A stretch of DNA of 35,163 bases from a virus: the IMG/VR virus record IMGVR_UViG_3300007522_000004, positions 1 to 35,163 of that record; one strand, 5' to 3'. The translations under genes were made by a program, and so were the position numbers. The notes beneath the pieces were generated by a model. The model worked only from the letters and a program-made list of their open reading frames with translations. It was not told where the DNA came from and did no database searches. The first letter of the stretch is position 1, and every line of letters begins with the position of its first letter. Shown here piece after piece: positions 9,249-12,520 of the stretch.

Positions 9249-9566
9249 ATGAGCAGTTTATCAGAGATCTACCTTAAGGTAGAAACATTAAAAACTTTAG
9301 CCGATACTTTGGCAAAGAAAGGAGAAAAAGGAATTAGTATTACAATTTCCACAAATGAAGAAACGAATGAATATGGACAAAATATTTCGGCTTTTGTAGC
9401 TCAAACCAAAGAGGAAAGAGATGCAAAAAAAACACGTTTTTATGTAGGAAACGGAAAAGTTTTTTGGAACGACGGGAATATTACCAACGCAGCTAAAAAA
9501 GAAGAAACACACAATGCAACCCCAGAGGGGCAAGTTGCAGACGAGGAAGATGATCTTCCTTTTTAA
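9249..9566 (+). CDS. Single-stranded DNA-binding protein-like
   Basis: 105 aa. A beta-rich core (ISITISTNEE.., NISAFVAQTKEERDAKKTRFYVGNGKVFWNDGNI) is followed by a flexible region and the tail DEEDDLPF. An acidic stretch ending in Pro-Phe is the partner-binding tip of bacterial and phage SSBs. The core is shorter than a full OB-fold SSB, so it may be a minimal or divergent version. The position after the annealing protein and exonuclease supports the call, and it is the last gene before a strong terminator. Confidence 0.65.
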   Translation: MSSLSEIYLKVETLKTLADTLAKKGEKGISITISTNEETNEYGQNISAFVAQTKEERDAKKTRFYVGNGKVFWNDGNITNAAKKEETHNATPEGQVADEEDDLPF

Positions 9567-9586
9567 TATCCCCAAGATACCAATTA

Positions 9587-9611
9587 AACCGCCTATCTGG
9601 GCGGTTTTTTT
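9587..9611 (+). terminator. Intrinsic terminator ending the early recombination operon
   Basis: A perfect 7-bp stem, AACCGCC (9587-9593) with GGCGGTT (9600-9606), encloses a 6-base loop and runs directly into T7. It lies 20 bases after the SSB-like gene and separates it from the repeat-rich control region. Confidence 0.85.
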
Positions 9612-9622
9612 GTTTTATATAA

Positions 9623-9860
9623 GATTTGCAACAGTTGCAACTGTTGCAACCCCCTTAGTTGCATATAGAATATACTATTTATAAGGGTTGACAAAGATTT
9701 GCAACCGAGTTGGTTGCAAGTTGGTTAGTAGTAATTTTTTTTTTAAAATTAAAAAATATTTTTAAAAAACACGATTTGCAACCAACTTAGTTGTAAGTAT
9801 TGATTTTATAGGGTTTACGGAGTTTTTAGGGGTTGCAAATGGTTGCAACCGAGTTGCAAC
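9623..9860. repeat. Iteron array, candidate replication origin
   Basis: About eleven copies of a GTTGCAAC-like word occur in 238 bases: 9625, 9634, 9643, 9658, 9698, 9713, 9775, 9790, 9832, 9842 and 9853 (start positions). GTTGCAAC is its own reverse complement. GATTTGCAAC recurs at 9623, 9696 and 9773 (73 and 77 bases apart), and TTGCAACCGAGTTG occurs twice. An almost pure A/T tract lies at 9729-9770. Iterons plus an AT-rich element upstream of the primase-helicase operon are the classic layout of a replication origin. No ORF covers the region. Confidence 0.65.
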
Positions 9861-9922: not shown

Positions 9923-9930
9923 TATATTTG
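9923..9930 (+). promoter_or_regulatory. Promoter -7 box for the structured RNA and replication operon
   Basis: TATATTTG matches the Bacteroidota -7 consensus TAnnTTTG exactly and is identical to the boxes of the divergent early promoters. A -33 TTG at standard spacing is not clear. Transcription would begin near 9936. Confidence 0.6.
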
Positions 9931-9935
9931 TACTT

Positions 9936-10028
9936 CAAGGTGTGGAAACTGAAATCATTATTATTCCCGATAGGATTTTTTCGACCTCCACACCCGAAGA
10001 ATGAATATCGGGATTTTTATTTTTTATT
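9936..10028 (+). ncRNA. Compact ~90-nt structured RNA with its own promoter and terminator
   Basis: GGTGTGGA (9939-9946) is the exact complement of TCCACACC (9987-9994). TCCCGATA (9965-9972) is the exact complement of TATCGGGA (10006-10013). The two 8-bp helices interleave in the order 1-2-1'-2', a pseudoknot, unless they are alternatives. CCCGA (9993-9997) can also pair with TCGGG (10008-10012) to form a terminator hairpin directly before a T-rich run (10014-10029). The unit starts just after a consensus -7 box. It may be an independent small RNA, a leader that attenuates the replication operon, or a regulator of origin firing. I cannot name a family; Flavo-1 and other Bacteroidota RNA families should be tested. 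Confidence 0.6.
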
Positions 10029-10031
10029 TAT

Positions 10032-10241
10032 ATGAAACTATTTATTACAAATAAACCAGATCTTGACACGAACAAGGAATCGGCAATAATACACAAGCTG
10101 GCCTTTGCTGAAATGTCAACAAGTATAGCTGAGGGTTTTATACCGTTGGAAATATTCATAAGCTACTATTCACAAGATTTTTTATTTGAGTTTGTAAATA
10201 AAAAGAATGAATTGTTCTTTTATAAATTCACTCAAATATGA
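10032..10241 (+). CDS. Hypothetical 69-aa protein
   Basis: ATG 10032 is directly after the T-rich end of the structured RNA. MKLFITNKPDLDTNKESAIIHKL.., ending VNKKNELFFYKFTQI, is a mixed alpha/beta acidic protein with many aromatics. It is coupled by ATGA to the primase-helicase gene. Family unknown; probably an accessory replication or regulatory protein by position. Confidence 0.6.
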   Translation: MKLFITNKPDLDTNKESAIIHKLAFAEMSTSIAEGFIPLEIFISYYSQDFLFEFVNKKNELFFYKFTQI

Positions 10242-12520
10242 TAGCACTTTCACGATGTTTACGTTTACTGGACGAGGGGTTTTCGCTCATAACAGTATCG
10301 AACGATAAAGTACCTAACTATGCTTGGCTAAGCCAACAATCAAAACAGTTGTCAAAAACTGAATTTGAAAAACGTTTTAATTATAAAGGCGGGTACATAA
10401 AAAAAGACGGTACGGAAATGCCAGCAACCGAACACGTTGGAATAGTTACTGGGTTCGGCTTTCTTGAATGTTTGGATGTTGATCTAAAAGTATTCAGCAC
10501 GGCCAAAGAACAAAAAGAATGGTGGGACGAGTTTATTTCTTTTGTTGAGGATAATATTTTAGATTTTCACGATAAGTTTGTAATTACTAAAACAAGAAAT
10601 GCTGGCTTTCATATTCTTTACAAATCAAAAAGAGTTGAAGGAAATCGTAAACTCGCAAAATTAAAAGGACATAAAGAGGCTATACTTGAAACACGTGGAC
10701 GGTGGGGTTATGTGTTTATTTATGATAATTTTCTAAAGGATAAAACATATAACGATATTGATTTTATAAGTGATGAGGATCGGGATATACTTTTAAACAT
10801 TGCAGAAACCTACAATTATATTGATCCGGTAAGATTAGATGTACCTAAAAAAACAAAATCCGACTTCAAGACAAGTGAAGGAGATATTACTCCGTGGGAC
10901 GACTTTAATCAAAAAAATAAGGTTTGGGATATTGTAAGCGATGATTTTACAATCGTTAGAAACCTTAATAATAAGTACATAATAAAGCGACACAATGCTG
11001 AAAGTGCGCATAGCGGTTATATTTATAAAGACGAGGATTTGATGTACCTTTTTTCAACCGGTACAATCTACGAACACGAAAAACAATACTCCGCATTTTC
11101 TGCATACGTCCGTAAAAATTTCAACGATGATTTTTCAGAAGCTACAAAGCAAATCTATAAAGATGGATATGGAAGCCGGATAGTAAGAAAGGAAACCGAA
11201 CCAAAGGAAAAAATAATAATTAATAAAAAAGACCTTGAGTTTCCTATTGAGATATTTCCGCAGCCAATACAGACTTATATTTATGAATGTGCCACAACTT
11301 TAAATAGTAACGTAGATTATATGGGTTGCTCGATGCTTTGGTTAATTTCCCTTTGTATAGGGAACAGCTTAAAAATAGAGGTAAAAAAAGGGTGGAACGA
11401 AACCGCCGCGATATGGATGGCCGTTGTAGGAAAAGCCGGAATAGGAAAAACGCCTTCAATATCAAATATCATATTCCCTTTGGAAAAGCAAAACAATCGG
11501 GAAATTTCAAACTACATAAAGGAATTTGAAAAATATGAATACTACGAAAACCTAACGGCAAAAGAAAAAAAGGAACATCCAGAAACCCATAAACCAGTGA
11601 AAAAACAATTCATTGCAAACGATATTACACTCGAAGCATTGGTTTCTTTACACCAAGAGAATGATAATGCAGTAGGGGTTTTTAAAGATGAGCTGGCTGG
11701 CTGGTTTAAGGATATGAATAAATATAAACAGGGTTCGGATCTTGAATTTTGGTTGTCTACGTGGTCAGGCCAAAGCGTAAACCTTAACCGTATAACGCGA
11801 GCCGGTTCTTTTGTTGCAAGTCCTATGATTCCAATTTTAGGAGGTATTCAGCCGAGTATATTTAATTCATTTTATACCGAAGAAAACAAGAATAACGGTT
11901 TTATGGATAGAATGCTTTTATCATATCCCGACCTTGAAGTGGAAAAATACAACGAGGACGAAATGAATTATAATACTATACAATGGTTTCACGATACCGT
12001 AGTTTCATTTTACGAAACAATAAAACATAAAATGATCGTACGTAACAAGGATGGCCAAATAGAAAGCCACGTTGTTAAATTCAATAAGGAATCCAAAAAA
12101 GAATGGATTAGAATATTTAACGAAATAACCGAAATTCAAAATAGCGATTCGGAAAATGAATATATGAAGTCTATGCTGCCAAAACAAAAATCATATATCC
12201 CGCGCTTTGCATTAATGATTAATACAATGGATGGGTTTTTATATCAAAATAAAATACCGAGTGAGATTACCAAAGTAAGTATTTTGAAAGCTGAAAAACT
12301 AAGTAAGTATTTTATTGCAATGGCGAAGAAAGTGAAAGTTGATAGCATTGCTTCTGCGGACATAAAAAAAGTAATACGAAAAAACGAGAACAAAACCAAT
12401 AAGGAAAAATTTGAGATACTGTTTAAAGGAAATCCCGAACTTAATATTAAAGAGGTTTCTGAGCAGTTGGGAATTACCACGCAGGCTATTTATAAATACA
12501 AAAAAGAATTAGGGTTATGA
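10238..12520 (+). CDS. Primase-polymerase/DUF3987 helicase-type replication protein
   Basis: 760 aa. Residues ~1-200 resemble a bifunctional primase-polymerase (AEP) domain, with GIVTGFGFLECLDVD (Asp pair near 79-82) and ITKTRNAGFHILYKSKR with the conserved His. From ~340 to 700 it is a DUF3987-type ATPase/helicase: Walker A GKAGIGKT near residue 398, a Walker B-like GVFKDELAGW near 480, and the downstream GGIQPSIF and NGFMDRMLLSYPD motifs. The last ~40 residues are an HTH (LNIKEVSEQLGITTQAIYKYKKEL) that could bind the adjacent repeats. It should prime and unwind the phage replication fork. Coupled on both sides by ATGA. Confidence 0.85.
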   Translation: MIALSRCLRLLDEGFSLITVSNDKVPNYAWLSQQSKQLSKTEFEKRFNYKGGYIKKDGTEMPATEHVGIVTGFGFLECLDVDLKVFSTAKEQKEWWDEFISFVEDNILDFHDKFVITKTRNAGFHILYKSKRVEGNRKLAKLKGHKEAILETRGRWGYVFIYDNFLKDKTYNDIDFISDEDRDILLNIAETYNYIDPVRLDVPKKTKSDFKTSEGDITPWDDFNQKNKVWDIVSDDFTIVRNLNNKYIIKRHNAESAHSGYIYKDEDLMYLFSTGTIYEHEKQYSAFSAYVRKNFNDDFSEATKQIYKDGYGSRIVRKETEPKEKIIINKKDLEFPIEIFPQPIQTYIYECATTLNSNVDYMGCSMLWLISLCIGNSLKIEVKKGWNETAAIWMAVVGKAGIGKTPSISNIIFPLEKQNNREISNYIKEFEKYEYYENLTAKEKKEHPETHKPVKKQFIANDITLEALVSLHQENDNAVGVFKDELAGWFKDMNKYKQGSDLEFWLSTWSGQSVNLNRITRAGSFVASPMIPILGGIQPSIFNSFYTEENKNNGFMDRMLLSYPDLEVEKYNEDEMNYNTIQWFHDTVVSFYETIKHKMIVRNKDGQIESHVVKFNKESKKEWIRIFNEITEIQNSDSENEYMKSMLPKQKSYIPRFALMINTMDGFLYQNKIPSEITKVSILKAEKLSKYFIAMAKKVKVDSIASADIKKVIRKNENKTNKEKFEILFKGNPELNIKEVSEQLGITTQAIYKYKKELGL

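Follow-up and report, generated by a model that had tools for sequence, protein, structure and literature searches.

A probable kissing-loop transcription attenuator in the leaders of early genes of flavobacterial phages

In a 35,163-nt stretch of viral DNA (positions 1 to 35,163 of IMG/VR record IMGVR_UViG_3300007522_000004; hereafter the window), we describe a structured element at positions 9936-10028 that is, with a probability of roughly 60%, the 5′ leader of a primase-helicase operon and would act as a kissing-loop transcription attenuator. The original prediction for this element, made from the letters of the DNA, had already considered that it might attenuate the helicase operon, and this is also the reading favored here. 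The element is single-copy in the 35 kb window record and, across its relatives, is probably a built-in brake on replication and homing-endonuclease genes.

Both perfect 8-bp helices that the original prediction had placed here, H1 and H2, are present in the window sequence and interleaved, with a promoter box before them and a T-rich tail after them; the CCCGA/TCGGG that had been counted as a third pairing is actually the core of H2, which is also the terminator stem. The idea of a pseudoknot RNA stands insofar as the RNA is structured and pseudoknotted in topology, and gives way in its details: a kissing loop is the better description of the fold, one in which the two helices would be a loop-loop helix and a terminator stem (P2), with two hairpins, P1 and P3, that had gone unseen. 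The helices, the kissing pair, the T-tract, the place between promoter and ATG and the classes of downstream gene were all computed here. The gene order runs from an SSB-like gene through an ordinary terminator, iterons and the element to a 69-aa ORF and a DUF3987/primase-helicase gene, as follows:

9249-9566: SSB-like protein with an acidic DDLPF C-terminal tail; no Pfam match
9586-9612, + strand: ordinary terminator ending the upstream SSB-like operon
9626-9860: iteron-like TTGCAAC/GTTGCAA cluster between the SSB-like gene and the leader
9923-9930, + strand: −7 box TATATTTG of the Bacteroidota promoter type TAnnTTTG, the presumed leader promoter
9934-9953, + strand: P1, the 5′ hairpin (TTCA 9934-9937 with TGAA 9950-9953), whose loop at 9938-9949 carries the 5′ kissing arm
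9939-9946 and 9987-9994, + strand: H1, the kissing pair, GGTGTGGA with TCCACACC, perfect complements read from the sequence
9965-9972 and 10006-10013, + strand: H2, the P2 terminator stem, TCCCGATA with TATCGGGA, perfect complements
9977-10001, + strand: P3, the apical stem-loop (TTTTTCG 9977-9983 with CGAAGAA 9995-10001), with the 3′ kissing arm in its loop
10014-10029, + strand: T-tract of the predicted intrinsic terminator, directly 3′ of P2
10032-10241, + strand: 69-aa ORF of the MKLFITNK family, the first gene after the leader
10238-12520, + strand: Prim-pol/DUF3987 primase-helicase gene, the presumed main target of the leader

Because the ordinary terminator at 9586-9612 closes the SSB-like operon, the helicase operon requires a promoter of its own; a clear −33 element was not seen in the window at the usual distance from the TATATTTG box. 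At the other end of the element, a stem followed immediately by a T-tract, the arrangement of an intrinsic terminator, is predicted from the letters. The co-directional ATG at 10032 lies 18 nt after the end of P2 at 10013, and the 69-aa ORF that it opens, whose family has relatives at 23 further viral loci and for which Pfam and PHROG matches were not found, overlaps the helicase gene by 4 nt. The helicase itself is annotated by DUF3987 (E 3e-50), phrog_2373 (DNA helicase) and phrog_19930 (polymerase/primase). At the position of the iterons, close relatives carry differing repeat words, GGTTTAAA in several of the loci L002-L020 and TGTAACATGTTACA in L077.

Within the 150 nt after the box, none of 2000 dinucleotide shuffles equaled the interleaved helices beside the T-tract of the window (stacking energy −33.8 kcal/mol, against −30.7 for the best shuffle), which bears out the earlier view that a chance origin is unlikely. 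Plain minimum free energy (MFE) folding is unimpressive (z only −1.9) and as a sole criterion would have discarded the element, so that its support comes from comparison. By ViennaRNA folding, the P2-P3 hairpin of the window reaches −17.0 kcal/mol; P1 is weak, its 4 bp being equaled by 24% of flank shuffles, and the 7 bp of P3 are equaled by 12%.

For this comparison, 80 viral loci with a related helicase were collected and the DNA upstream of the helicase was compared. The same plan recurs there in entirely different letters. In the nearest relative, L002, whose helicase is 86% identical, the helices are GCTGTGGC/GCCACAGC and ACCCTCTT/AAGAGGGT (positions 2085-2155), with double changes relative to the window at 6 of 16 base pairs and none broken. 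At a strict cut-off, the element is found at 47 of the 76 helicase loci with at least 300 nt upstream, against 1 in shuffles, and at several of the remaining loci the element has a shorter T-tract or a longer loop and so falls below this cut-off. T-tracts are weak in some relatives (L002, L007, L033-L039). A long variant, in which GTGAGAA/TTCTCAC are the kissing arms and the P2 loop is greatly extended, exceeds the length limits of the descriptor; it lies directly upstream of the helicase in L066, L067, L071, L074 and L076. A scan at −28 or better returned 71 real against 1 shuffled arrangement, and 160 against 9 passed without any T criterion; the scan gave 175 distinct candidates, 144 of them with an ORF start within 30 nt downstream. 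Moreover, when viral contigs were searched with a pattern free of complementarity, TATATTTG...GAGTAG...CGAAA, kissing arms and a terminator were present, among the matches listed, at 55 of 80 kept loci, against 6 when shuffled. Two other search patterns were dropped, one as over-strict and one as too unspecific (5/79), and blastn of the RNA against phage records returned the AT-rich promoter region only, with insignificant E-values.

In most members, a small hairpin (P1) close to where transcription presumably starts presents the 5′ kissing arm in its loop; the 3′ arm occupies the loop of P3, an apical stem on top of the terminator stem P2. Covariation in homologs, a check that had been proposed with the original prediction, revealed massive compensatory change. 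In a MAFFT alignment of 22 members of one subfamily (A1), 91.1% of pairs are standard and 22 of 23 pairs have changed on both sides; the covariation score of 0.685, compared with 0.210 in shuffles, was reached by none of 500 shuffles; one-column slides fell to 0.09-0.18, and the slid controls as a whole lay at 0.05-0.18. All 7 pairs of the kissing helix and all 9 of P2 covary, P1 (helix 1) covaries strongly, P3 (helix 4) is kept in relatives, and RNAalifold recovers P1, P2 and P3 unprompted. P2 has many G-U pairs, and these point to an RNA of this strand. Members of the subfamily also have in common a GAGUA/GAAA internal loop where P2 meets P3; it may resemble a bulged-G (loop E) motif.

The kissing contact itself was examined with a covariance model of the AGUA/GAA subfamily (R1) that includes P1, P2 and P3 and leaves the kissing pairs out. 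Run over 100 loci, R1 gave 47 distinct held-out matches. In 70% of them the element's own P1 and P3 loops can form at least 6 Watson-Crick pairs; for loops taken from two different elements the share is 4%. The AGUA/GAA internal loop is absent from the window element, and at E 10 the window has no R1 match (without filtering, R1 aligns in register at 11.5 bits); the window is therefore a divergent member, whose membership rests on architecture, position and covariation with L002. The weak z of the fold and the weak P1 of the window are what chance pairing within an AT-rich intergenic region could draw on, yet covariation refutes that explanation, with the shuffles, the held-out kissing test and the helicase-locus scan also against it, and we give it practically no credence.

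A TAnnTTTG box stands just upstream of all 17 R1 matches in loci that had not been selected for a box (5% expected from shuffles). After P2, the frequency of T is 0.6-0.84 at positions +1 to +8 and then about 0.3, with no T criterion in the selection. A co-directional ORF starts within 30 nt, at distances of 7-28 nt, after 63 of 69 strong elements (91%), whereas this holds for only 23 of 186 ordinary terminators (12%) on the same contigs. This difference argues for a cis leader rather than a free-standing non-coding RNA; moreover, a further promoter would not fit ahead of the downstream ORF, whose mRNA must therefore traverse the element; the element is thus a leader and not a neighboring gene.

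Two other roles for an RNA in this position have to be weighed. The leader could shield the 5′ end of the mRNA from decay or tune ribosome access at the AU-rich start, with termination a minor matter; since P1 begins close to the presumed start site, the 5′ end would be largely paired, and both a median of 11 nt from box to kissing arm and an ATG only 7-28 nt behind the stem fit such a role. Against it, the sharp T-tract abuts P2 as intrinsic terminators need, and an ordinary phage leader, upstream of 21606 in the snusmum6-1 genome, lacks a T-tract, so that we regard protection or translational tuning as unlikely. The second role, a trans-acting small RNA, had also been raised in the original prediction: promoter and terminator would yield a discrete, probably stable product of about 90 nt, the loops of which would base-pair with RNAs of the host or the phage, and kissing sequences do differ in 24 of 24 pairs of same-contig copies. 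Such differences are expected by chance, however, as only 2.5% of pairs between contigs share a kissing sequence (the comparison with 0/24 is for the same reason uninformative on avoidance of shared sequences within a genome). Helix sequences are exchanged freely even among close relatives, which a conserved target would forbid, and the strong coupling to a downstream ORF start also speaks against a free-standing RNA, making action in trans distinctly improbable. Attenuation through a leader peptide was considered as well and is not general, an ATG before P2 being present in only 46 of 144 leaders.

The genes led by these elements are of early type (initiators, primase-helicases, homing endonucleases and others). 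They were counted as blastp clusters with one representative annotated per cluster:

30 cases: replication initiators (phrog_270)
25 cases: DUF3987 primase-helicases
12 cases: NUMOD4-HNH homing endonucleases
11 cases: small MKLFITNK-related family
9 cases: another small protein family
8 cases: BT4734/PriCT primases
Single cases or small groups: ERF, Mom, methylase-helicase, and a GIY-YIG-like protein (MUG113/T5orf172 domains)

No structural genes were recognized among the identified downstream families. Two further small families repeatedly follow the leader, beginning MSKDLFQLMRQQE (L005 921+) and MKTLFENLKEEHK (L104 1133+), and for neither were Pfam or PHROG matches found. Free-standing homing endonucleases (NUMOD4-HNH, GIY-YIG-like) lie near the cassette at L199 3276-4058, L016 6364+, L017 7718+ and L073 5509+; as each carries its own promoter-leader-terminator unit, the cassette may travel with them.

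This range of genes bears on a further explanation, in which the element would belong to a replication origin, as a primer RNA, a single-stranded DNA structure or, as had been suggested from the iterons, a plasmid-like antisense device for copy control. Iterons do adjoin the window copy, and a large share of copies lie upstream of replication initiators or primases. Yet elements also precede homing endonucleases, Mom, ERF and other genes, and one phage holds three copies; an antisense promoter is not enriched (17 of 144 elements, against 15% in shuffles, for the −7 box type only), and the G-U pairs and the promoter indicate an RNA made from one strand. An origin function is accordingly very improbable.

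Eighteen loci hold two or three elements with differing kissing sequences. Among cultured phages, the complete genome of Flavobacterium phage snusmum6-1 (vB_FspS_snusmum6-1, NC_048841) has three, with boxes at 9708, 13649 and 14684; one element each is present in Olleya phage Harreka_1, in Flavobacterium phage 11b and in the 3.3-kb stretch examined of Polaribacter phage Danklef_1. The annotated start of snusmum6-1 gp33 falls inside an RNA element (L357 9791-9827, NC_048841), and a start some 36 nt further on, at an ATG that follows the terminator and opens a 456-aa frame (MTDYEKF...), suits the family better. The element was not found in Flavobacterium phage 6H, in the first 40 kb of Cellulophaga phi38:1, or in the portions examined of Tenacibaculum phage JQ and Riemerella phage PT33. 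Bacterial genomes hardly ever carry it: R1, with limited sensitivity, matched only a phage-like contig of one (G001) among about 600 Bacteroidota genomes, and the exact pattern gave 2 matches in 395 such genomes, one without the element and the sole true one on a contig that also bears a phage helicase.

Under the favored reading, a kissing-loop attenuator, RNA polymerase would start some 5-7 nt after the TATATTTG box, and the first 20 or so nucleotides would form hairpin P1, the loop of which would be a waiting probe of 6-8 nt. Once made, the P3 loop would kiss the P1 loop, holding the 5′ half of the long P2-P3 hairpin; P2 would close as the last nucleotides emerge, and we infer that the polymerase stops there in vivo, in the T-tract before the ATG. 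The kissing contact presumably favors rather than hinders termination, although its part is a proposal because P2-P3 alone, at −17 kcal/mol, looks sufficient. Downstream genes would be expressed from read-through transcripts only, which would make the kissing contact the natural control point: read-through, which is probably regulated, would change if either kissing loop (P1 or P3) or the internal loop were occupied or delayed. A switch between pseudoknot and terminator, as had originally been envisaged, finds no support because P2, the terminator stem, itself belongs to the interleaved pair of helices, which can form at the same time; a conserved antiterminator alternative fold was likewise not found.

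As for the trigger, the most economical candidate would be an early protein made by the phage, or else an altered RNA polymerase, because copies of unrelated sequence serve different genes of one phage. Since copies within a phage differ in all helices, a common trigger would read the shape, the internal loop or the A-rich linker, or act on the polymerase. More tentatively, the elements might constitute a phage-specific class, a cis kissing-loop terminator used as a sequence-flexible cassette before many early genes and jointly relieved by one phage-encoded or phage-modified antitermination factor that recognizes the kissing fold rather than sequence; such a structure-coded regulon in flavobacterial phages is conceivable, if doubtful.

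Transcriptional control in Bacteroidota phages is almost unexplored, and a covariation-supported RNA family is now at hand, with 175 distinct candidates, several per phage and also in cultured phages, that would gate replication and homing-endonuclease genes and make the timing of early genes in flavobacterial phages testable. Furthermore, because the fold persists through free variation of its kissing and stem sequences, the leaders could supply mutually non-interfering attenuators for engineering in the phylum.

The kissing-loop leaders of flavobacterial phages appear to be an undescribed family, matched by no Rfam family or paper. Rfam 15, the database check proposed with the original prediction, gave no family at gathering threshold in the window or 14 relatives, Flavo-1 and other Bacteroidota families included, and relaxed searches gave only hits far below threshold. 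On L157, the matches to RT-14 and TEG147 fell far short of the gathering scores, and a CopA-like antisense RNA (RF00042) reached 16.2 bits (E 2.2) against a gathering score of 60. A type III toxin-antitoxin RNA was also set aside, ToxI being tandem pseudoknot repeats by an endoRNase toxin and the present element a single copy with a primase-helicase downstream. In literature on pseudoknot, kissing and terminator RNAs in phages and Bacteroidetes, of which coverage was partial so that an earlier description elsewhere is possible, no description was found, and the papers on the host phages are silent on terminators and promoters.

Several known systems share parts of this design. The STAXI motif (PMC2864571), likewise a pseudoknot RNA-like element, occurs close to genes that handle DNA, SSB for example, and on mobile elements. 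It forms a tandem array, whereas the element of flavobacterial phages is one leader equipped with a promoter and a terminator. The H-type pseudoknot riboswitches preQ1 and SAM-II likewise have interleaved helices within about 90 nt of a 5′ leader; the phage leader differs in having no Rfam match, in the kissing loop made by P1 and P3, and in a 3′ helix that is a terminator with a T-tract. Loop-loop (kissing) riboswitches, the purine riboswitch among them, are cis leaders with two hairpins joined by loop-loop pairing and a transcription terminator as output, but the phage leader has no conserved ligand core and no Rfam match, its helix and kissing sequences vary freely, and the terminator hairpin itself bears one kissing loop. 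The put RNAs of HK022 are phage leader RNAs near early-operon promoters that influence termination in cis; compared by description only, they lack a terminator of their own and act on distant ones, unlike the phage leader. In the rep-mRNA attenuators of pT181 and pIP501, hairpin loops of the leader enter kissing contacts and an intrinsic terminator precedes the start codon. Attenuators of this type (PMC4878617) resemble the phage leader in standing before a replication gene, in their kissing hairpin loops and in a terminator just before the start codon, an architecture that the phage sequences also appear to have. In the plasmids, however, the kissing partner is a second, antisense RNA acting in trans, and the outcome depends on a competing fold; in the phage elements the antisense promoter facing the leader that this scheme calls for is not enriched, the partner loop lies in cis and the leader also stands before genes other than those of replication.
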